This document shows positions 3,136 to 12,425 of a stretch of DNA of 64,000 nucleotides, one piece after another (within the stretch, counting starts at the first letter, position 1; every line of letters begins with the position of its first letter). Source of the DNA: Chryseobacterium suipulveris (GTDB taxonomy: Bacteria > Bacteroidota > Bacteroidia > Flavobacteriales > Weeksellaceae); assembly GCF_022811685.1 (NCBI RefSeq), contig NZ_CP094532.1, forward strand, positions 2,522,501 through 2,586,500, in the 5' to 3' direction. Below the pieces are notes generated by a model that was not told the DNA's origin, searched no databases, and saw only the letters and a program-made list of their open reading frames with translations. A program made the position numbers and the translations under genes.

Positions 3136-4423
3136 ATGAACTTACAGAATAAACTTAATGCCGCTCAAAAATCCTTTGAGAACTGGCGAAAAACTTCCTT
3201 TAAAGAAAGACAAAAACTGATAGAAAAACTCTCAGGAGTGCTCGATTCAAACCGTGAAGCTTTAGGAACGATCATCACAAAAGAGATGAACAAACCCATT
3301 TCCCAATCCATTGCCGAAATAGAGAAATGTGCCTTGATGTGCCGCTATTATGCAAAAGCCGAAAACATTCTTCAACCAGAAAAAATAAAAACCGAATACC
3401 GAATCTCGGAAATCCACTATGTTCCAATAGGCGTGATTATGGGAATCATGCCGTGGAATTTTCCGTTCTGGCAAGTCTTGATATTTTGCCGTGCCTGCAA
3501 TTTTGGCGGGAAATACGGTGGTGCTTAAGCATGCATCAATCTGTTTCGGAAGCGGGAAAAGGATTGAAAAGCTGTTTCTGGAAGCAGGTTTTCCAAAAGG
3601 TGTGTTCCAGAATCTGGAGATTGGACACGAAGAGGTGAAGAAAGTTTTGGAAAACCCGATCGTTCGCGGAGTAAGTTTAACGGGAAGTGAAAAAGCGGGA
3701 GCCGAAGTTGCGGCAACCGCGGGAAGAAATATCAAGAAATCCCTGCTCGAACTTGGTGGAAGCGACGCGTTCATCGTTTTGGATGACGCCAATTTTGAAA
3801 AAGCAGCAGAAAGCGGTGCAAAAGCGCGTCTCCAGAACTGCGGACAAGCGTGCAACGCAGGGAAGCGATTCATCATCCAGAAAAATATTGAAAAAGATTT
3901 TCTTCCCTTATTTATAAAGGAGTACCAAAAATTTGTTCCTGGAAAACCTTTGGATAAAGCCACCAAAATAGCAGGAATGGCGCGTCCAGATTTGGCGGAT
4001 GATCTGGAGAAACAATATAAAGCTGCAATAAAAAACGGAGCAGAAATTATTTTGCCGCTTGAAAGAATTTCTCCCAACGAATTCGTGCCAGGTTTGATTA
4101 AAGTGAAAAAGGGAAATCCAATTTTGGATGAGGAAGTTTTCGGGCCACTTGGAATGGTCCTGGTCGCAAAAGATGACAATGAAGCCCTGAAACTCGCAAA
4201 TGATATTCCGTTTGGACTTTCCAATTCAGTTTGGACGAAGGATAAAAAGCGCCAACAATTCTTTACCGAAAATCTGGATTCCGGGACTGTGAGTATTAAT
4301 AAAGAGTCAAGCTCGGACCCTCGTTTACCGTTTGGTGGTGCGAAAGCTTCGGGTTATGGAACCGAGTTGTCGCTTTTGGCGTTGAAAGAATTTGTAATTG
4401 CGAAGACGGTTGTAGGAAACTGA
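3136..4423 (+). pseudogene. NAD(P)-dependent aldehyde dehydrogenase, frameshifted
   Basis: Aldehyde dehydrogenase superfamily, closest in style to succinate-semialdehyde dehydrogenases of the Sad/GabD type. The reading frame is broken: residues up to PWNFPFWQVLIF read in one frame (3136 to about 3487, stop at 3528), and the rest, beginning FAVPAILAGNTVV, reads in another frame to 4423. One surplus T in the run TTTT at 3484-3487 explains it, since removing it restores QVLIFAVPAIL. Both catalytic motifs are intact: glutamate in LLELGGSDAF and cysteine in NCGQACNAGKRF. The repaired product would be 428 residues, about 25 shorter at the N-terminus than typical. It is either a recent pseudogene or a sequencing error in a homopolymer; I cannot tell which. 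Confidence 0.85.
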
Positions 4424-4469
4424 AGATCCAAGAAACAAGGCAAAAGAAACAAGAGCCATGTGATTTCCA

Positions 4470-4600
4470 TAAACGATTGTCAATGGTGAATTCGCTTTGC
4501 GGTGAATGGTGAATTTTGATTGGCGTTGCTCAGGAACCATTTGAGCAAACTTTAACAACCACTGCACCAAAATGCACCAACTGCAACAATTGCAACCGCA
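4470..4600. repeat. degenerate short repeats between convergent genes
   Basis: The 181 bp between the aldehyde dehydrogenase and the ABC exporter hold short repeated words: GGTGAAT occurs three times at 4482-4516 and ACTGCA/TTGCAAC words recur at 4560-4600. A perfect 7 bp stem, TTGCTCA paired with TGAGCAA (about 4526-4548), may act as a terminator or spacer. No gene is apparent. Confidence 0.45.
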
Positions 4601-4604
4601 AAAA

Positions 4605-6350
4605 CTACTTGCTCTCCTCCACTTCCTTTTTCAGCTGGGCTTTGTAGAGTGTGGCGTAGTAACCGTTTTTGTCGAGAAGTTCCATATGTTTTCCTTCCTC
4701 GACGATTTTTCCGTGATCCATCACGATGATCTTATCCGCTTTCTCGATGGTTGAAAGTCGGTGCGCAATGATGATGGAGGTTCTATTTTTGGTGATTTTC
4801 TCCGTTGCTCGCTGGATGAGTTTCTCGCTTTCTTGGTCGATGGAGGAAGTCGCCTCATCGAGAATCAGAATTTTCGGATCAGTAAGATAAGCTCTTAAGA
4901 ATGAAAGGAGCTGTCTTTGTCCCAAAGAAATCGACGAACCACGTTCACGCACCACATAATCGTAACCATCGGGAAGCGACATGATAAAGTCATCTACCTC
5001 GATGTCTTTTGCAACCGCACGGATTTTATCTAAAGTAATGGTGTCGTCGCCGAAAGAAAGGTTTTCGAAAATACTTCCGTGGAAAAGGAAAACATCCTGC
5101 AGAACAACTCCGACATGACTTCTCAGATTGTAGAGTTCATAATCCTTTAAATCAACATCATCGAGAAGAATCTTGCCTGAATTAATGTCGTAAAGTCGCG
5201 TAATCAAACTGATAATCGTGGATTTCCCCGCTCCAGTCGCACCCACAATCGCCACCGTTTCGCCAGGATTTACCAAGAAGCTGATCCCTTTCAGAACCTC
5301 CTGTTTTTCATCATAAGAGAAATGTACATTCCTAAATTCAATTTTACCGTCAAAATGATCTTTCATCACTTTTCCGTTATTTGGGAGCATAAAATCTTCA
5401 TCCATCACTCCCAAAACTCTTTCTGCACCTACGATTCCACGCTGGATGTTGTTGAAGCGGTCTGCAATTTGTCTTAGCGGACGAATCAGCATGGAAATGT
5501 ACTGAATAAAAGCGATTACCGCACCTGCTTTAATAGTAATAAAACCTCCATACATCAGGATAAACCCGAGAAACAGCGAAGAAATCAGTTCGACAACGGG
5601 AAAAAACAGCGAGAAAATGAAAACTGTTCTCAGCAAAGCCGCCTTTAAAGTGATATTAATCTGATCAAATTTTTCAAATTCCGCCTTCTGTCGGTTGAAG
5701 ACCTGAACCAAGGTCATTCCTGAAAGCCGTTCCTGTACGAAGGAATTTTGGTTGGCTGTCCAGGTTCGCTCGTCGCCGAAAGCTTTCTTTAAACGTTTTT
5801 GGAAAAATCTCGTAATGACCACCATCAAAGGTAAAATCGCCAATGAGATATAACTCAGGTGCACATCCACTTGAAACATCATGAACAGCACGAAAATGAT
5901 ACGTAAAATATCTCCAAAAACCATCAAGAATCCATCCGTGTAAACGGTGGCGATGGTCTCCACATCACCTACTGCCCTGGTTACGAGCTGCCCCACCGCA
6001 GTTTTGTCGAAAAAGGAAGTGCGGAAGTAGATCAGTTTATGGTAAAGCCGTTCACGAATATCGCGAATGACATTTTGCGAAATAAAATTGGAAAAATAGA
6101 CCAGAAAAAAGTTCAGAATGGTTTCCCCAAAAACCAACGCCACCAAAATATAGATGTGCTTCATCATCAGCGCCTTGTCCTTTAGCCGGATGATGTCGGT
6201 ATCCACGATCTGCATGGTGAGATAAGGTCTGTATGTGGAAATTACGGAAAGCAGGACTGAAATAACGAGCGTGAAAATAAACCACGCGCGGAACTTCATG
6301 CCAATCACGAAAAGCCGTCTGATAATATCCCAAGTGCTTTGCTTCTTCAT
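4605..6350 (-). CDS. ABC transporter, fused permease and ATPase (MsbA/MdlB type)
   Basis: Half-size type IV ABC exporter of 581 residues, acting as a dimer in the inner membrane on lipids, drugs or peptides; the substrate cannot be told from sequence. Residues 1-310 form the six-helix membrane domain and 335-581 the ATPase. Walker A is GATGAGKST at 370-378, Walker B ILILDE at 494-499, and the H-loop histidine is H530. The signature motif reads SLGQRQ (475-480) instead of LSGGQ, a variant known in this subfamily. It stands alone between a repeat-containing gap and the small cassette at 6.6 kb. A possible -7 box (TATTTTTG, 6369-6376) lies 18 bp upstream without a clear -33. Confidence 0.93.
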   Translation of the reverse strand: MKKQSTWDIIRRLFVIGMKFRAWFIFTLVISVLLSVISTYRPYLTMQIVDTDIIRLKDKALMMKHIYILVALVFGETILNFFLVYFSNFISQNVIRDIRERLYHKLIYFRTSFFDKTAVGQLVTRAVGDVETIATVYTDGFLMVFGDILRIIFVLFMMFQVDVHLSYISLAILPLMVVITRFFQKRLKKAFGDERTWTANQNSFVQERLSGMTLVQVFNRQKAEFEKFDQINITLKAALLRTVFIFSLFFPVVELISSLFLGFILMYGGFITIKAGAVIAFIQYISMLIRPLRQIADRFNNIQRGIVGAERVLGVMDEDFMLPNNGKVMKDHFDGKIEFRNVHFSYDEKQEVLKGISFLVNPGETVAIVGATGAGKSTIISLITRLYDINSGKILLDDVDLKDYELYNLRSHVGVVLQDVFLFHGSIFENLSFGDDTITLDKIRAVAKDIEVDDFIMSLPDGYDYVVRERGSSISLGQRQLLSFLRAYLTDPKILILDEATSSIDQESEKLIQRATEKITKNRTSIIIAHRLSTIEKADKIIVMDHGKIVEEGKHMELLDKNGYYATLYKAQLKKEVEESK

Positions 6351-6417
6351 TTATTCTTGTAAACGGTGCAAAAATACGGAAAAAGTTGGAGTTGGATAGA
6401 ACGTGTATTTGTTTGTG

Positions 6418-6560
6418 TTGGTTGCAATTCTCAAGTTTCAGGCCTGTCTGCCGACAGGTAGATTTGAAGTTTCGAGATCATAACTGAGGAAAGAAATTCA
6501 CTCGAAGAAATTCACTATTGAATTTCATCACTTATCACTCATCGCCCATCACTCATCTTC
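6418..6560. repeat. dispersed intergenic repeat A, copy 1
   Basis: This segment matches 12281-12425. Shared words in the same order are GGTTGCAATT, CAAGTTTCAGG, GATCATA, GAAATTCACTCGAAGAAATTCA split around a hairpin, and CACTCATC. The hairpin is GAAATTCACTATTGAATTTC at 6507-6526 (8 bp stem, 4 nt loop). Relative to copy 2 this one carries an extra hairpin, CCTGTC-TGCC-GACAGG near 6443-6458. Both copies end at the 3' end of a minus-strand gene. Confidence 0.7.
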
Positions 6561-6600
6561 GCTCTGGCTCACCCACACTCCGACTTACCAACACACCCCC

Positions 6601-6789
6601 TCAATACCTCCACCGAAACATCAACGCCGACAAAGCAAAGGTTAGAACCGCAACGGCGCCATAAGCAGCCATTGTTGGATTGAGGAATTTACTCCAGGAG
6701 AGATAAACCATCCAAGAGGAAATCAATCCTGCGAGAAAGAGCAAGATTGCTGTGGGAAAGGTTTTAAAAAAAGTAAAGATCTTTTTCAT
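6601..6789 (-). CDS. small membrane protein, unknown function
   Basis: I do not recognise a family. Starting at the MKKIFTFF methionine (6789) the product has 62 residues with two hydrophobic helices, at about 10-27 and 38-55, and a basic C-terminus ending RWRY. A longer frame starts at 6822 but would overlap the preceding gene; starting at 6789 leaves 10 bp after the upstream stop, which fits an operon. It is the last gene of the minus-strand cassette that runs from 10059 down to here. Confidence 0.55.
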   Translation of the reverse strand: MKKIFTFFKTFPTAILLFLAGLISSWMVYLSWSKFLNPTMAAYGAVAVLTFALSALMFRWRY

Positions 6790-6799
6790 TATCGTATTG

Positions 6800-7942
6800 C
6801 TACTGAAACTCATTGATGCCATAAAGTATTTCCTTCATTTTGCTGCCGTTTACTTCTACGGGTTTGTAGGCGACATTGAACTTATCAATGGCAATATTAA
6901 TGTCGGATTTCAGTTTGCCGTATTCGATCGGTAACTTACTTTCGCATTGTGTTTGGTTTTGGTAGCTGTTTAGGATAATGCTAAATTTCTGGTAAAACTG
7001 TTCACCCGAATTGATAAAGTTATTGTATCCGCCGATAAACTGGATGAGTCGGTCAATAGGAAACTCCACCTCGATCTGCATCTTTCTTTTTTGAAGGTTT
7101 TCGGATTTAGCAATGGTCAGCACATAGTTTTCGAGTTTATCTTTCACCTCGCTCCAGTCGTCGTTTTCGCGACATTCTTTAAGTGATTTTGCGTAACCTA
7201 TTGGTTTGGTGTAATCGCGAAAGAGCGTTTCGATATCTTTTTTGATTCCGTCATTTGATTTTTGCAGAAAGGCGGTTTCAAAATAAATCGTGTTCAAGTC
7301 ATTCTGCATCCGGAGTGTGAAGTCGATAATGCAGTCCACTTTTTTTAGCTCAGATTCTTTCTCTTCTTTGGTAAGGTTGGAAACCAACATGCTTGTAAAT
7401 GTATTGATTACCGAGGCAATTGAGTTTGTTCCCAAAATACTTGTGAGATCGAAACCAAACTTCTTATCTTTTTTTGACTTGATGAGATCCTGCACTTTTT
7501 CAAATTCAGGATATTGGGTAGGGTTTGAGATTTTTGAAATTTCCGAAAAAGTTCTAACGGATGAAAAATGATGATCCAGCCCTAGAACCTTTTCATATAA
7601 GATTCGGATAATTTGTAATCCTTTTATGTATCTGATTTTAGAAATCTCATTCGACATATCTGAAAGATTATTGCTGATGTTTGTTTTCAGCATATCCTTT
7701 TCAAGGAGCAGATTGAGTTTTCTTTCCGTGTTTTTTTCCTGAATTAGGGCAATATCAATTTCTTGCAACTTCTTGTTATAGAAAGTGATTTTTTCGGAAT
7801 AGCTTTTAGAAACTGTTTCGAGTTCCGCATACATTTCTTCCACCACTATATTGGGATCATCTTTAAGTTCTTCTGCAAAAGCAAAGATGACTCCTAAAAA
7901 GAAGAAAAGGAAGATCATTGTAGTTTGTAGTAAATTTTTCAT
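6800..7942 (-). CDS. exported coiled-coil protein, unknown function
   Basis: Protein of 380 residues with a signal peptide (MKNLLQTTMIFLFFFLG... ending FAFAEE). The mature part is almost entirely helical and charged, with coiled-coil heptads at about 30-95 and further helical segments to the end; there is no lipobox cysteine. No catalytic motif is visible. The start at 7942 is preferred over 7951 because the signal peptide then begins directly with MKN. An upstream hairpin (7962-7996) and a TTTTAAAA element precede the start. It belongs to the cassette under the TPR/AraC regulator, so a periplasmic structural or sensory role is possible, but this is only inference. Confidence 0.65.
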   Translation of the reverse strand: MKNLLQTTMIFLFFFLGVIFAFAEELKDDPNIVVEEMYAELETVSKSYSEKITFYNKKLQEIDIALIQEKNTERKLNLLLEKDMLKTNISNNLSDMSNEISKIRYIKGLQIIRILYEKVLGLDHHFSSVRTFSEISKISNPTQYPEFEKVQDLIKSKKDKKFGFDLTSILGTNSIASVINTFTSMLVSNLTKEEKESELKKVDCIIDFTLRMQNDLNTIYFETAFLQKSNDGIKKDIETLFRDYTKPIGYAKSLKECRENDDWSEVKDKLENYVLTIAKSENLQKRKMQIEVEFPIDRLIQFIGGYNNFINSGEQFYQKFSIILNSYQNQTQCESKLPIEYGKLKSDINIAIDKFNVAYKPVEVNGSKMKEILYGINEFQ

Positions 7943-7961
7943 AATACTCAAATTTTAAAAT

Positions 7962-7996
7962 GGGCATTGCCATTAGTCGCTTCACCGGCAATGCCC
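7962..7996 (-). other. intercistronic hairpin before the coiled-coil gene
   Basis: Perfect 10 bp stem GGGCATTGCC (7962-7971) with GGCAATGCCC (7987-7996), loop 15 nt. It sits 20 nt before the start at 7942 and 23 nt after the stop of the preceding gene. It is followed by only a short T run in the minus direction, so it may be an attenuator or an RNA stabiliser rather than a full terminator. Confidence 0.6.
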
Positions 7997-8019
7997 GGGT
8001 TTAGAAATCACGAAGCGCA

Positions 8020-8457
8020 TTACTTCTCTGAAAGGGTGAAGATCACCACCGCTTCCTCTTTTTCGAAAAGCAGCGGATAATTCCCCTCCTTTATTCTCCC
8101 GTACTTTCTGTCAATCTGCAATTGATCGAGCAAAGAATCCTCGAGGATGATATCCTTTTCCTGAGAGAATTGCAATTTTTCGGTGGGTGAAATTTTGTCA
8201 AATTCTTTTCCTGCAATGTTTCTTTGCGAGCTTGTGGAAAGTGTTCTGTTGTCAAACACAAAAGCGATGGACTGACCGGAAATTTTTCTCACCGTAACCG
8301 CATCTTTGTTCACACTTGGCGGCTCCCCAGAAACATCGCACAATCCCAAACCTCCGTGGCAGTCTCTGCCACGAATATCTGCCGAAATCCTTGCCTCTTG
8401 CGAAAACAGAAAGAGCGAAAGAAACATTGCAGGCAAAATTGCATGTTGTTTTTTCAT
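8020..8457 (-). CDS. secreted CxxGGxGxC protein (paralogue 1)
   Basis: Exported protein of 145 residues with a signal peptide (MKKQHAILPAMFLSLFLFSQ). After the signal comes the loop GRDCHGGLGLCDVSG, two cysteines that could form a disulphide. It ends with a beta-rich segment KYGRIKEGNYPLLFEKE. The gene at 9183-9641 has the same plan: GR...KDCGGFGFCKG near the N-terminus and YTLKAGAYKPSFD near the C-terminus. I therefore judge them paralogues of one small family that I cannot name. Location is the periplasm or outside. Membership of the cassette next to a TPR/AraC regulator suggests regulated production. Confidence 0.65.
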   Translation of the reverse strand: MKKQHAILPAMFLSLFLFSQEARISADIRGRDCHGGLGLCDVSGEPPSVNKDAVTVRKISGQSIAFVFDNRTLSTSSQRNIAGKEFDKISPTEKLQFSQEKDIILEDSLLDQLQIDRKYGRIKEGNYPLLFEKEEAVVIFTLSEK

Positions 8458-8527
8458 ATTATAGGGGTTTAAAATTTAACGATTAATATGGGTGTAATTC
8501 TGTTACAGGTTATTTTCAATCCTGAAC

Positions 8528-9121
8528 TTATTTAAATTGAATCTCTTTCTCTGTCAGTCCCCATCCGTCTTGGAAATCCATATTCAGCTTTACTACCTTA
8601 ATTTTCACTTTTCTGTTGTTTTCAGCCAGCTCCTGCCAAGCCGAAACATGGTCAACATTTCTATTTCCTACAAAAATTGCCCAATTGATCATAAGATAAT
8701 AATCTGAATCATTCATTACATGCATTGACTCCGATTCTAATGGAATAGTAAAGTCGGTAATAAGTTGCTGTATATTATGAGTGCCTGTTTTTAGTTTAGT
8801 ATTGGCATCCAGATTTGGAATAACCCGAAATAATCCGGCATTACATGATTCGGAATCTTCTTTATAAATGAGTTCGTTACCGTTTTTGTCAAACAATATA
8901 GCTTCGGGAATTCTCTTATAGAAGACTTTTATGATGTCTGAAAATGCTTTCTTGTCTTTGCAAAGATAGTTGTCGCCATGCTGCATTTTATTCTGATCCA
9001 AATACATCTTGATGTTTTGGGGGTTCTCTAATTTCGGGTCTTTAAAACCGAAAATTGTTTTGCCAATTTGCTGACAGGATACAAGTGCCAATAAGCAAAA
9101 GAGCATGATAATTCTTTTCAT
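8528..9121 (-). CDS. lipoprotein, unknown function
   Basis: Product of 197 residues beginning MKRIIMLFCLLALVSCQQ, a clear lipoprotein signal with lipobox LVSC and acylated cysteine C16. The start at 9121 is chosen because the longer frame (from 9250) runs through the end of the upstream gene. The mature protein mixes beta and helical segments (for example a DNYLCKDKKAFSDIIKVFY stretch) and matches no family I know. A 15 bp perfect hairpin directly precedes the start. It lies between the two CxxGGxGxC paralogues. Confidence 0.65.
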   Translation of the reverse strand: MKRIIMLFCLLALVSCQQIGKTIFGFKDPKLENPQNIKMYLDQNKMQHGDNYLCKDKKAFSDIIKVFYKRIPEAILFDKNGNELIYKEDSESCNAGLFRVIPNLDANTKLKTGTHNIQQLITDFTIPLESESMHVMNDSDYYLMINWAIFVGNRNVDHVSAWQELAENNRKVKIKVVKLNMDFQDGWGLTEKEIQFK

Positions 9122-9135
9122 AATTTTTCTTTTTA

Positions 9136-9169
9136 AAATCCTTTCTGTTGCAACCAACAGAAAGGATTT
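9136..9169 (-). other. 15 bp perfect hairpin in lipoprotein leader
   Basis: AAATCCTTTCTGTTG (9136-9150) pairs perfectly with CAACAGAAAGGATTT (9155-9169) around a 4 nt loop. It begins 14 nt upstream of the ATG at 9121 and ends 13 nt after the preceding stop, so it occupies almost all of the intercistronic space. It may be a terminator/attenuator or an mRNA-processing signal. Confidence 0.65.
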
Positions 9170-9182
9170 AATGGGGTTAATG

Positions 9183-9641
9183 CTATCTGATTGATACCGG
9201 AATAATATATGACCCGTAAATATTTGAGTCAAAGCTTGGCTTATATGCACCAGCTTTTAGCGTATAAGTTCTTCCGTCCATCTCAACGGGAATGTCATTG
9301 TCAACATGCAAGGTGTTATCAAATCTTGTTGTATCGATTGTTTGTGCCAAATCAAAACGATAATAGCTTTGATTCGAGTCCTCAATTAAATACCCCGTAG
9401 CTGTTGATTGCCGAAAGCTCACATCTATATCAACATAAGATCCTTTACAGAAACCAAATCCACCACAATCTTTAGATGTCCTTCCGATCACCCAATGGAT
9501 TTTTATTCCAATTTTTGACGAAGGCGCGTCTGCAAATTTTACATCTTTGGCAGTAGGTTCCAATTTCGTTGACTTCTGCCCAAATGCAAAAGAACCCACA
9601 AACACCATCAACACCGCGAAAAATTTAATCATTGTTTTCAT
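9183..9641 (-). CDS. secreted CGGxGxC protein (paralogue 2)
   Basis: Exported protein of 152 residues when started at MKTMIKFF (9641); a start three codons later is equally possible. The signal peptide ends near SFAFGQ. The mature protein has the two-cysteine loop KDCGGFGFCKG, a central beta-rich part and the segment YTLKAGAYKPSFD near the end. These three landmarks align with the 145-residue protein at 8020-8457. No function is known to me. The gene follows a 208 bp gap filled with hairpins (9762-9818). Confidence 0.65.
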   Translation of the reverse strand: MKTMIKFFAVLMVFVGSFAFGQKSTKLEPTAKDVKFADAPSSKIGIKIHWVIGRTSKDCGGFGFCKGSYVDIDVSFRQSTATGYLIEDSNQSYYRFDLAQTIDTTRFDNTLHVDNDIPVEMDGRTYTLKAGAYKPSFDSNIYGSYIIPVSIR

Positions 9642-9761
9642 AATAATTTTTGTCTCCTCCAGATTTTTGGTTTTAAAGAGCAACGGTCGGGAGAGGCACG
9701 TATTTGCGACCGCTGTCTTTGGTTAAAGATTTAAGTTTTGCGAAACCGTTTGTTTTAAGCC

Positions 9762-9818
9762 GCCGGCTCCGCTTCTTCCGGCTATTGCGGGATGTTTTAG
9801 GAGTTCCCGCAAACTCCT
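9762..9818. other. cluster of overlapping hairpins
   Basis: Three stems occur in 57 bp: GCCGG/CCGGC at 9762-9782, TTGCGGG/CCCGCAA at 9785-9791 with 9806-9812, and AGGAGTT/AACTCCT at 9799-9805 with 9812-9818. The second and third share bases and cannot form together. The location, between two genes transcribed leftwards, fits an attenuator or a small RNA, or the remains of a repeat. Confidence 0.4.
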
Positions 9819-9849
9819 CCTATTCGTAGCTACTGAATATTCTGGTCAA

Positions 9850-10059
9850 TTACTTAATTGGTGGTTTTACATTTGGGGCATTTTCTTGAGGCAACCCTAC
9901 AAGAACAGAATCCGAATCTTCGGAACTATTCCTGTTCATCATAAGGTCTTTGGCTGTATCCATATCTTCTTTGTGAAAATAGGGCAAATTCTCCTGTTCT
10001 CGGCAGCTCGTCAATGCAAACAATAAGATTGCGGCAGCGAACCATACTATTTTTTTCAT
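9850..10059 (-). CDS. small lipoprotein, first gene of the cassette
   Basis: Product of 69 residues, MKKIVWFAAAILLFALTSCREQ..., with lipobox LTSC (C19). The mature part is only about 50 residues, acidic in the middle (NSSEDSDSV) and ending in a proline-rich tail NVKPPIK. There is no known family. It is the gene nearest to the divergent regulator, with a good promoter about 155 bp upstream (10220-10251). Confidence 0.6.
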   Translation of the reverse strand: MKKIVWFAAAILLFALTSCREQENLPYFHKEDMDTAKDLMMNRNSSEDSDSVLVGLPQENAPNVKPPIK

Positions 10060-10219
10060 GCTTTAAAATTTTAATGGGTTTAAAAAATTCTAATCACATG
10101 CAATTGCGTCTTAAAAGTTTTTCGTTTTCATCTGTGAGATTTATTTTACTCCTTTCTTCACAAAATCTGAAATAGCGAGCTCCTGTTCTTTCCGAAAATC
10201 TTCCGTGATTCCTTACCGA

Positions 10220-10251
10220 CAAATCTATATGCCGAACCGATACCCACCAAA
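10220..10251 (-). promoter_or_regulatory. promoter of the lipoprotein/secreted-protein cassette
   Basis: Minus-strand -7 element TAGATTTG at 10220-10227 and -33 element TTTG at 10248-10251, spacer 20 bp. It would give a leader of about 155 nt. It lies in the 349 bp divergent gap shared with the regulator gene, an arrangement that would allow control of both sides. Confidence 0.6.
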
Positions 10252-10381
10252 AGAACCGACGGAAATTTTAATGATGAAAATTGTCAAAATCAGAAAAACC
10301 ATTGTCAAAAAATGAAAACCCCATCAGCAAACCACTCATAATCAGCATATAAAAAATTTCCGAGAGATAAGATTTTTTAGC

Positions 10382-10389
10382 TACATTTG
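10382..10389 (+). promoter_or_regulatory. promoter of the TPR/AraC regulator
   Basis: Plus-strand -7 element TACATTTG at 10382-10389; the -33 region holds TTTC at 10357-10360 (spacer 21 bp). Transcription would start about 15 nt before the GTG at 10409. The gap also holds a direct repeat of TTGTCAAAA (about 10278 and 10303) that might be an operator. Confidence 0.5.
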
Positions 10390-10408
10390 GGTTTCAAAAG
10401 CATCCAAA

Positions 10409-12166
10409 GTGACGGAATTCCGCAGTTTTTTTCTCCTGATTTTCCTTTTTACACAATTGCCGTTCCTGTCATTTGCGCAGCCCGGCGAATATTTAAGCGA
10501 ATATTCTGATTATCCAGCATTGGAAAAGAAGATAAAGTCTCTGGAAAATCAACCCGAACAGTCGATGGTTTATGTAGAAATGTTTATTAGGAAAGCAAAA
10601 AAAGAAGGGAATGCCGATAATATTCATAAAGGATATTTATTTGCAACCTTTAATTCCAGAGAAGAAATACAACTAAAATACGGTGACAGTTTAATTGTTT
10701 CCTCTATAAAACTGAATGACAGGAATAAGACAGGTGAGGCGCTTCTGTCACAAGCTTTGGTTTATCAGGGAAATGAAAATTATGAGAAATCCTTAGAATA
10801 TACCCTTGACGCTTTAAAAATTTTTGAAGAAACCAAGAATCTTTATTTAATCAATACAGCAAAATATTCGATTGCGGAAATCAAAACTTTTCTGGGAGCT
10901 TATTCGGAATCCAATACTTTATTTATTGAAACCACAGAGTTTTTCAGAAACAATCAAAAGAGAATAGGCAATACTGACTATCGACTATATTACCTCTACT
11001 CATTACTTGGATTAATTGGAACTGAAAATCGCTTGAAACATTTTTCTGAAAGTCAGAATCTTATCGACGAGGGAAAAGCTTATGTGAGCAAAAACCGGGA
11101 GTTTTTGGGCTACTTCCCGTATTTTGTCTCTTCCGAAGGAACCAACTTCTACTTCCAAAACAATTATCCCAAAGCGATCGAGAAACTCGACGAAGCCCTG
11201 AAACTTTACGACGACAAATGGAAACACCTCACCGAAAAATTCTATATCGGCATGAGCTACTACCACTTGAACCAATACGACAAAGCCATTCCCTACCTTC
11301 AGCTGATCGAAAAGGACTATGATGAAACGGGCAAACTCTTCCCCGAATTCCGCCCCGGCTTTGAGGCGATGATCGACATCTACAAAAACAAAGCAGATAA
11401 AGACCTGCAACTGCACTATATCGACAAACTCCTGATCATCACCAAAAAGGAAAACGAAAGCAGGGAAAAAATCCGCACACGCTTAGAAAAGAAAATGGGT
11501 GAAACCGAGCTGCTCGCCGCCAAAAAGGAATTGGAAAACTATAAGAAATGGCAAAAGTTTGCACCGATTTGGATTGGAACAATACTAATTGTTGCGGGAC
11601 TGTTGTTTTACCGAAACCGGAGTAAAAAACTGCGAAAAAAAATATCACCACATTCGGAAGATCATGGTTTTTCCACGACTGAAACTCTTGAAACCATTGC
11701 CCTTTCCCTACACAACGATGCGCCGTTTACAGCTGAGCCGACAGAAATTACCCCAACTACACTTCCACTAACCGAACCTGAAAGTTCTGAACCCACCGAC
11801 TTTAGCAAATATGCCCCGATCCGGAAAGAAACAGTGCTCCTCATCCAGAAAAAACTCGCCACATTCGAAGAAGAAAAGCGCTTTACCTACAAAAACATTA
11901 AGCTCAGTTCGCTTGCAAGGGATTTCGGAACCAACGAAAAGTATATTTCCGCCATCATCAAAGCCGACAAAGAAAAGAACTTCAATGAATATTTGAGCGA
12001 CCTCCGAATCGACTATTTCCTGCAGCTCCTCAAAATACCTGAAAATAAATTGAAGAGCATCACAGAACTTTCAGAAAAAACGGGCTTCACCAACAACGAA
12101 ATGTTCCATAAGGAATTCAAGAAGAAGTTTGGTGTTTCTGTGAAGCAGTATTTTGGGAAGGATTAA
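10409..12166 (+). CDS. membrane-anchored TPR and AraC-type regulator
   Basis: Regulator of 585 residues. Order of parts: signal/anchor sequence 1-23, helical TPR repeats about 95-350, a charged coiled coil 350-385, one membrane helix about 386-404, a Ser/Thr/Pro/Glu-rich linker 405-490, and a C-terminal AraC-type helix-turn-helix 490-585 (TYKNIKLSSLARDFGTN and SITELSEKTGFTNNEMF). The TPRs would thus sense something in the periplasm and the DNA-binding part sits in the cytoplasm, a one-component design common in Bacteroidota. The start is GTG; a good signal peptide begins there. It is transcribed away from the cassette at 6601-10059, the most likely target. Within the TPR part, codon use shifts to a more GC-rich style after about 11100. 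Confidence 0.88.
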   Translation: MTEFRSFFLLIFLFTQLPFLSFAQPGEYLSEYSDYPALEKKIKSLENQPEQSMVYVEMFIRKAKKEGNADNIHKGYLFATFNSREEIQLKYGDSLIVSSIKLNDRNKTGEALLSQALVYQGNENYEKSLEYTLDALKIFEETKNLYLINTAKYSIAEIKTFLGAYSESNTLFIETTEFFRNNQKRIGNTDYRLYYLYSLLGLIGTENRLKHFSESQNLIDEGKAYVSKNREFLGYFPYFVSSEGTNFYFQNNYPKAIEKLDEALKLYDDKWKHLTEKFYIGMSYYHLNQYDKAIPYLQLIEKDYDETGKLFPEFRPGFEAMIDIYKNKADKDLQLHYIDKLLIITKKENESREKIRTRLEKKMGETELLAAKKELENYKKWQKFAPIWIGTILIVAGLLFYRNRSKKLRKKISPHSEDHGFSTTETLETIALSLHNDAPFTAEPTEITPTTLPLTEPESSEPTDFSKYAPIRKETVLLIQKKLATFEEEKRFTYKNIKLSSLARDFGTNEKYISAIIKADKEKNFNEYLSDLRIDYFLQLLKIPENKLKSITELSEKTGFTNNEMFHKEFKKKFGVSVKQYFGKD

Positions 12167-12202
12167 TCGGCTTTAAGCAATCGGCTTTCGGCTTTCGGCG
12201 GT
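12163..12202. repeat. CGGCTTTCGGC-type short repeats
   Basis: Right at the stop codon of the regulator the sequence repeats AATCGGCTTT(A/C)(A/G)GC words three to four times. A related tract follows the phosphodiesterase stop at 14020-14070. Confidence 0.6.
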
Positions 12203-12280
12203 TTAGAGTTGAAAACTAAGTTTATCGTTTTTAGCCAATGATAATTTCTCACCGATTTCACAGATGACGCAGATTATTAT

Positions 12281-12425
12281 GTGGTTGCAATTGTTTCAGT
12301 GGTATCAAGTTTCAGGTTTCAAATTTCAAAGATCATAGCTAAAGAAGAAATTCACTCGAAGAAATTCATTCTTGAATTTCATCGCTCATCACTCATCACT
12401 CATCGCTCATCACTCATCGACACTC
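12281..12425. repeat. dispersed intergenic repeat A, copy 2
   Basis: Counterpart of 6418-6560. It contains GGTTGCAATT, CAAGTTTCAGG, GATCATA and the hairpin GAAATTCATTCTTGAATTTC at 12361-12380, whose stems are the same as copy 1 but whose loop is TTCT instead of CTAT. It then runs into a (CATCACT)n-like tract. The 326 bp gap between the regulator and truA consists of this element and its neighbouring tandem tracts. Confidence 0.7.

Follow-up and report, generated by a model that had tools for sequence, protein, structure and literature searches.

A window of 64,000 nucleotides (nt) from Chryseobacterium suipulveris (contig NZ_CP094532.1, positions 2,522,501-2,586,500 of the forward strand; assembly GCF_022811685.1, a genome of 3.04 Mb in one contig) carries a small islet in which six minus-strand genes, most of them for exported proteins, face a divergent gene for a membrane-anchored TPR/AraC regulator. 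The core of this cassette is the 380-residue product of 6800-7942, here called the LDHHF protein, and not the two small CxGGxGxC proteins that a preliminary description of the locus had placed in the foreground. That description was correct in its observation, and the arrangement is more than chance. The regulator probably switches the cassette on. From the comparisons below we infer an inducible exported cassette built round the LDHHF protein, and tentatively favour competition between related bacteria as its most likely role. It could represent an undescribed type of weapon or signal system; a literature search found no published account of this cassette, which is weak evidence.

The case for LDHHF as the core comes from its distribution and conservation. 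Copies from 16 relatives are 44-69% identical to that of the window; the stretch L122-D-H-H-F126 is invariant, and D123, H124, H125 and E222 are invariant in 17 members. The gene is found in 6 of 316 genomes of the same bacterial family, which are the same six that hold an intact gene of family A (the CxGGxGxC protein of 8020-8457), and in 32 of 397 genomes of a second family, with 26 copies at full length, one fragment and five remote matches. All 16 A-bearing genomes of the second family also carry LDHHF. Among 30 LDHHF loci that were compared, A lies directly upstream in 21 by profile and in L151 by eye, at 453 nt, so that 22 have a preceding CxGGxGxC gene, a count shaped by the fact that 19 loci (the window, L012, L013, L056 and L076-L090) were first located through family A; when second-family loci were found through LDHHF alone, 19 of the 26 full-length genes had A next upstream. 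The other eight loci lack a CxGGxGxC gene. In two loci, L145 and L150, only the regulator and LDHHF genes are present (L150 also has a 51-residue frame), and because LDHHF adjoins the regulator there without any CxGGxGxC protein, it is taken as the core. Outside the 30 loci stand a fragment in G982, the five remote matches (E 5e-7 to 3e-8), a copy at a contig end in G003 and a near-copy of the window in G262.

No Pfam family matched any of the 17 LDHHF members scanned above cut-off, no NCBIfam model matched the window copy above cut-off, the sequence profile found no match in the PDB, and searches of plasmids and viral contigs returned nothing. A single-sequence model is all-helical and of low confidence (pLDDT 48), and was therefore unfit for a fold search. 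One genome, G248, carries a complete LDHHF gene plus five of its 3' ends (L104, L106-L110), about 90-97% identical to one another; each 3' end lies where a contig stops, which would fit an amplified gene within which the assembly broke. Two further loci, L152 and L153, encode remote 400-residue relatives with no visible cassette around them.

The second constant of the cassette is its regulator. The product of 10409-12166 matches HTH_18 at 42.0 bits (Pfam cut-off 33.6) and TPR models also above cut-off, and a transmembrane segment near residues 385-402 was read by eye. The order of signal peptide, TPR repeats, transmembrane segment and HTH, taken by itself, suggests that the protein may sense an extracellular signal. 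A single-sequence search of its own genome gave no second gene matching at E <= 1e-3. The preliminary description had proposed counting how often such a gene stands nearby, and a related TPR/AraC gene lies near LDHHF in 10 of the 30 loci (the window, L012 with a broken regulator, L013, L056, L082, L084, L144, L145, L149 and L150), divergent in all of them except L013; the pairing is thus recurrent. Of the 30 genomes, 23 hold regulator matches at E <= 1e-20, 69 in total, and by a rough estimate about 0.26 linked regulators would be expected within 6 kb of LDHHF by chance, against the ten observed; linked regulators contributed to the regulator profile, which biases the count in their favour. 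Regulator genes of the second family also recur beside ald, DUF4258-like and proline dehydrogenase genes (L154-L159, L144, L145, L149, L150), and some of these loci are near a response regulator-PglZ gene as well, with LDHHF present or absent.

A defined DNA box accompanies the regulator in relatives. The box TTCNWGAA was drawn from five intergenic regions with tandem 21-22-nt repeats, and L082, outside this deriving set, also carries a pair. In six of the ten regulator-linked loci the shared intergenic region holds one exact pair with a spacing of 21-22 nt, 134-152 nt from the regulator start, and no second such pair occurs within the fetched sequence of these loci; in shuffled sequence the pair was reached 0, 0, 0, 0, 2 and 0 times in 5000. 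Twenty LDHHF loci have no linked regulator; of these, an exact pair precedes the operon in L143 and L148, which belong to one genus, and in L146, where the regulator is unlinked, a pair with one mismatch lies upstream of the LDHHF operon. Six unlinked regulators picked from the matches likewise have a pair upstream, four of them exact and two with one mismatch. Identified by eye (and by Pfam in L145 and L154, with DUF4258 below cut-off), their neighbours are ald, DUF4258-like, proline dehydrogenase and response regulator-PglZ genes; the last of these we take to be PorX-like. In eight whole genomes, searched on both strands, the box-pair pattern had 37 matches against 18 for a reversed control, so single matches carry little meaning alone. 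The link between regulator and operon is well supported by its conservation in relatives, and less so by the window's own sequence. The earlier proposal that the regulator controls a small secreted set is partly supported, by the recurrent pairing and, in six relatives, by the box pair, but the CxGGxGxC proteins are not the core of that set.

The two CxGGxGxC proteins are nevertheless true paralogues, judged by profile comparison, as had been proposed. The product of 8020-8457 (family A) carries CHGGLGLC and IKEGNYPLLF, and that of 9183-9641 (family B) CGGFGFC and LKAGAYKPSF; the two-cysteine glycine loop and the matching C-terminal segments are as first described, whereas the motif label CxxGGxGxC was wrong and should read CxGGxGxC. 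BLASTP aligned A and B only over the ten-residue loop (E 0.024), and narrow profiles gave 13.5%, but wider profiles of 31 and 5 sequences aligned them at full length (96.8%, E 2.5e-10), and one B protein matches one A protein across 110 residues (E 4e-6, in a small set). Family A comprises 82 proteins at E <= 0.01 in a large protein set, that of the window included. R29, G30, C33, G35, G36 and C40 are invariant in 50 aligned members, and G30, C33, C40 and Y127 still are in the wider 31-member set with second-family genomes. Intact A genes occur in 6 of 320 own-family genomes, with a degenerate copy in one, and in 16 of 397 of the second family; matches in G335, G361 and G378, which were partial, had E above 1e-4 and fell inside other or longer frames, were dropped, as were the degenerate copies of G307 and G507. 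A single-sequence search with B found one outside relative, and further relatives lie at L012, L076 and L079. As the preliminary description held, neither paralogue belongs to a named family by Pfam or NCBIfam cut-offs or PADLOC models, and a fold search with A gave no clear relative among solved structures. In G248 and G003 the contigs end just past A, as does L014. An S41 peptidase and an AAA ATPase are encoded upstream of A in L078, L014 and L151 (by profile for the L078 peptidase and the L151 ATPase, otherwise by eye), and a lipid A acyltransferase-like protein also appears in L078 (below cut-off) and L151 (by eye).

The cassette as a whole is an islet within a pair of genes, truA and ABC, that are usually adjacent: at 28 loci in other genomes of the genus, ABC follows truA within about 360 nt in 26, at about 1.4 kb in one and not within reach in the remaining one. 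Compared with C. koreense, the tract 5950-12370 has 22 differences in 5920 aligned nt, its individual pieces being 98.3-100% identical, and 6601-9143 has a single difference in 2543 nt. The flanks are 77-96% identical (rest of the ABC gene 84.3%, truA 95.6%, aldehyde dehydrogenase 76.7%). With the tract at 99.6% and its flanks so much lower, nucleotide comparison indicates that it was recently exchanged between the two species; the C. koreense copy is without the family B gene, about 500 nt being missing. In G257 (L012) the same gene order is present at another genomic site, with the LDHHF gene split and an insertion in the regulator, and transposase-like genes were seen by eye at 4268-5468 and 9747-10727, downstream of and within that cassette. 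Repeats at 6491-6557 and 12345-12411 flank the window's cassette and were the two best of 30 rows in a genome search. They were considered as mobile ends, and no transposable unit is claimed because shorter matches are numerous across the genome.

The exported or membrane genes up- and downstream of LDHHF differ from locus to locus. Downstream of LDHHF and on the same strand, L056 encodes SdpA and SdpB, both above cut-offs, and two SdpC-like proteins that score below cut-off. L013 has HTTM, beta-lactamase-fold and DCC1-like thiol-disulphide oxidoreductase proteins, the last also found in L056; CPBP occurs in L142, RDD in L149, and thioredoxin in L104, while L082 and L143 encode a TraB/PrgY-like protein (below cut-off). 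The C-termini of several small exported companions are Cys-rich or hydrophobic. It is because of the Sdp genes in L056, the varied exported companions, the patchy distribution of the cassette (LDHHF in 6/316 and 32/397 genomes) and the exchange between species that competition is favoured. In such a system the regulator would have a periplasmic TPR part and a cytoplasmic HTH, as its sequence order suggests, and would bind tandem boxes in the shared intergenic region, driving itself and the opposite operon; the window's own repeat at 10280-10321 is a candidate binding site only. LDHHF, A, B and the two lipoproteins would go to the periplasm or the cell surface, where the small disulphide-loop proteins may be the agents released or displayed, LDHHF a shared factor for their export, folding or activation, and self-protection the task of the small membrane protein.

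Several results weigh against competition and its control through the boxes. None of the seven window proteins, to which the scan of this genome was confined, matches SdpA, SdpB, SdpC or HTTM, and none has the obvious build of a precursor with a hydrophobic tail. L145 and L150, with regulator and LDHHF only, mean that no small payload is needed. Cys-rich or hydrophobic C-termini are found in 22 of 41 companions and 19 of 53 other exported proteins (p 0.097), and Cys C-termini alone in 15 of 41 and 10 of 53 (p 0.063), neither being significant. The box TTCNWGAA is missing from four linked loci, namely the window, L012, L013 and L056. The window's repeat is weaker, of different sequence and reached by 4 of 100 shuffles; L012 has another tandem repeat reached by 5 of 100 (the spacings being 21 nt in the window and 22 nt in L012), and L013 and L056 have no tandem repeat of note. 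Furthermore, 13 genomes have regulator matches that are all unlinked, and 10 of these show no box pair at their LDHHF locus (L080, L085 and L087 included).

The main rival to competition is that the cassette serves envelope homeostasis or nutrient use, with LDHHF induced by an envelope signal and acting in the periplasm as an enzyme or binding protein, A and B as its cofactors, and no part in competition. LDHHF has the regulator as its sole partner in L145 and L150, next to ald and DUF4258-like genes and, for L145, also proline dehydrogenase; this would suit such a role, as would the strong conservation of LDHHF with its invariant D123, H124, H125 and E222, and the lack of any toxin family above cut-off in the Pfam and NCBIfam scans. 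Patchy presence, exchange between species, changing exported companions and the Sdp genes of L056 are harder to reconcile with it, and we regard it as possible but the less likely account. A self-sensing circuit, in which the periplasmic TPR domain would bind as its ligand either a peptide derived from A or B or the LDHHF protein, has in its favour the pairing of the regulator with exported genes, the box pair upstream of regulator genes away from the cassette, and the peptide binding of Gram-positive RRNPP TPR domains. A, however, is missing from four of the ten regulator-linked loci (L144, L145, L149, L150) and so cannot be a general TPR ligand; we consider this circuit unlikely. A bolder proposal joins it to competition: the cassette would be the Gram-negative and membrane-bound equivalent of quorum circuits in which TPR proteins sense peptides, its periplasmic TPR domain sensing the cassette's own exports and, through tandem operators, autoinducing a new class of flavobacterial competition proteins that have LDHHF as their shared factor; we hold it to be quite improbable. 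Least probable is that LDHHF is itself a helical pore-forming protein of the ClyA/HBL kind, for which its export signal, length of about 380 residues, low-confidence all-helical prediction and a single segment, weakly hydrophobic on family average and centred near residues 177-178, would speak, against the absence of Pfam (above cut-off) and PDB matches and the model's pLDDT of 48.

The genes lie at the positions first stated (Table 1, genes in transcription order), with gaps of 208, 61, 70, 77 and 10 nt along the minus-strand cassette, and the statement that most of the six carry signal peptides or lipoboxes is borne out by five, read by eye, with ..SC lipoboxes in 8528-9121 and 9850-10059. 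No Pfam family was found above cut-off for the six minus-strand proteins, nor any NCBIfam match above cut-off or PADLOC anti-phage defence model for the seven window proteins. The product of 8528-9121 looks thioredoxin-like by eye only, and no thioredoxin-family match to it was found in Pfam or NCBIfam. The best start of 6601-6789 is an internal ATG, 10 nt past the stop of 6800-7942, and LDHHF is likewise followed by a 62-residue hydrophobic protein in L056. L012 encodes a 77-residue counterpart of the 9850-10059 protein, both having a KPPIK stretch near the end. The TAnnTTTG before the regulator is presumably a Bacteroidota-type -7 element.

Table 1. Features of the cassette and its surroundings in the window (aa, amino acids).
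Position	Strand	Feature	Basis
9850..10059	-	Lipoprotein, 69 aa, first gene	Lipobox by eye
9183..9641	-	Exported CGGFGFC protein of family B, paralogous to family A; 152 aa	Profile comparison
8528..9121	-	Lipoprotein, 197 aa	Homologous genes next to family B at L012 and L076 (cluster C3)
8020..8457	-	Family A, exported CxGGxGxC protein, 145 aa	Alignment
6800..7942	-	LDHHF protein, 380 aa, exported, conserved cassette core	Locus and profile comparison
6601..6789	-	62-aa protein, two hydrophobic segments, last gene	Sequence reading
10280..10321	.	Candidate regulator operator, tandem direct repeat, 21-nt period (ATTGTCAAAA..GAAAA.CC twice)	Shuffle test
10382..10389	+	TAnnTTTG, putative -7 element before regulator	Sequence match
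10409..12166	+	Regulator: signal peptide, TPR repeats, transmembrane segment, AraC-type HTH_18	Pfam and by eye
6491..6557	+	Left flanking direct repeat of 67 nt (90% identity to 12345-12411)	Genome sequence search
12345..12411	+	Right flanking direct repeat	Genome sequence search
5950..12370	.	Tract 99.6% identical to Chryseobacterium koreense	Nucleotide comparison

These results connect an unnamed flavobacterial regulator class with a target operon and also, in relatives, with a defined DNA box, and the signal of the regulator can therefore be searched for with a reporter. They also mark two unnamed families, LDHHF and A/B, as one exported module that has moved between species and adjoins toxin-type genes in at least one genome.

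Three known systems offer comparisons. AraC/XylS-family regulators bind tandem half-sites two turns apart, and the C-terminal HTH_18 of the window regulator and, as candidate operator sites, the tandem boxes 21-22 nt apart upstream in relatives resemble this layout, whereas its TPR-transmembrane-HTH build with a signal peptide differs from a soluble ligand-binding domain. In the RRNPP regulators of Gram-positives, TPR domains bind peptides; the window regulator is similar in that its TPR sensor is fused to a domain that binds DNA and its gene is paired with genes for small exported proteins, but it has an AraC-type HTH, is membrane-bound and belongs to a Gram-negative, and a peptide ligand would be hypothetical. 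Finally, the sdpABC and yitPOM operons of Bacillus subtilis are regulated and encode an exported toxin precursor with a variable C-terminal part, together with further proteins and an immunity membrane protein (PMC6818787). The window's cassette proteins differ in having no SdpA, SdpB or SdpC match in Pfam or NCBIfam, and the consulted parts of that account do not mention LDHHF or A/B in connection with the Bacillus operons (PMC6818787). In L056, one of the relatives, an SdpABC-like set neighbours the LDHHF gene.

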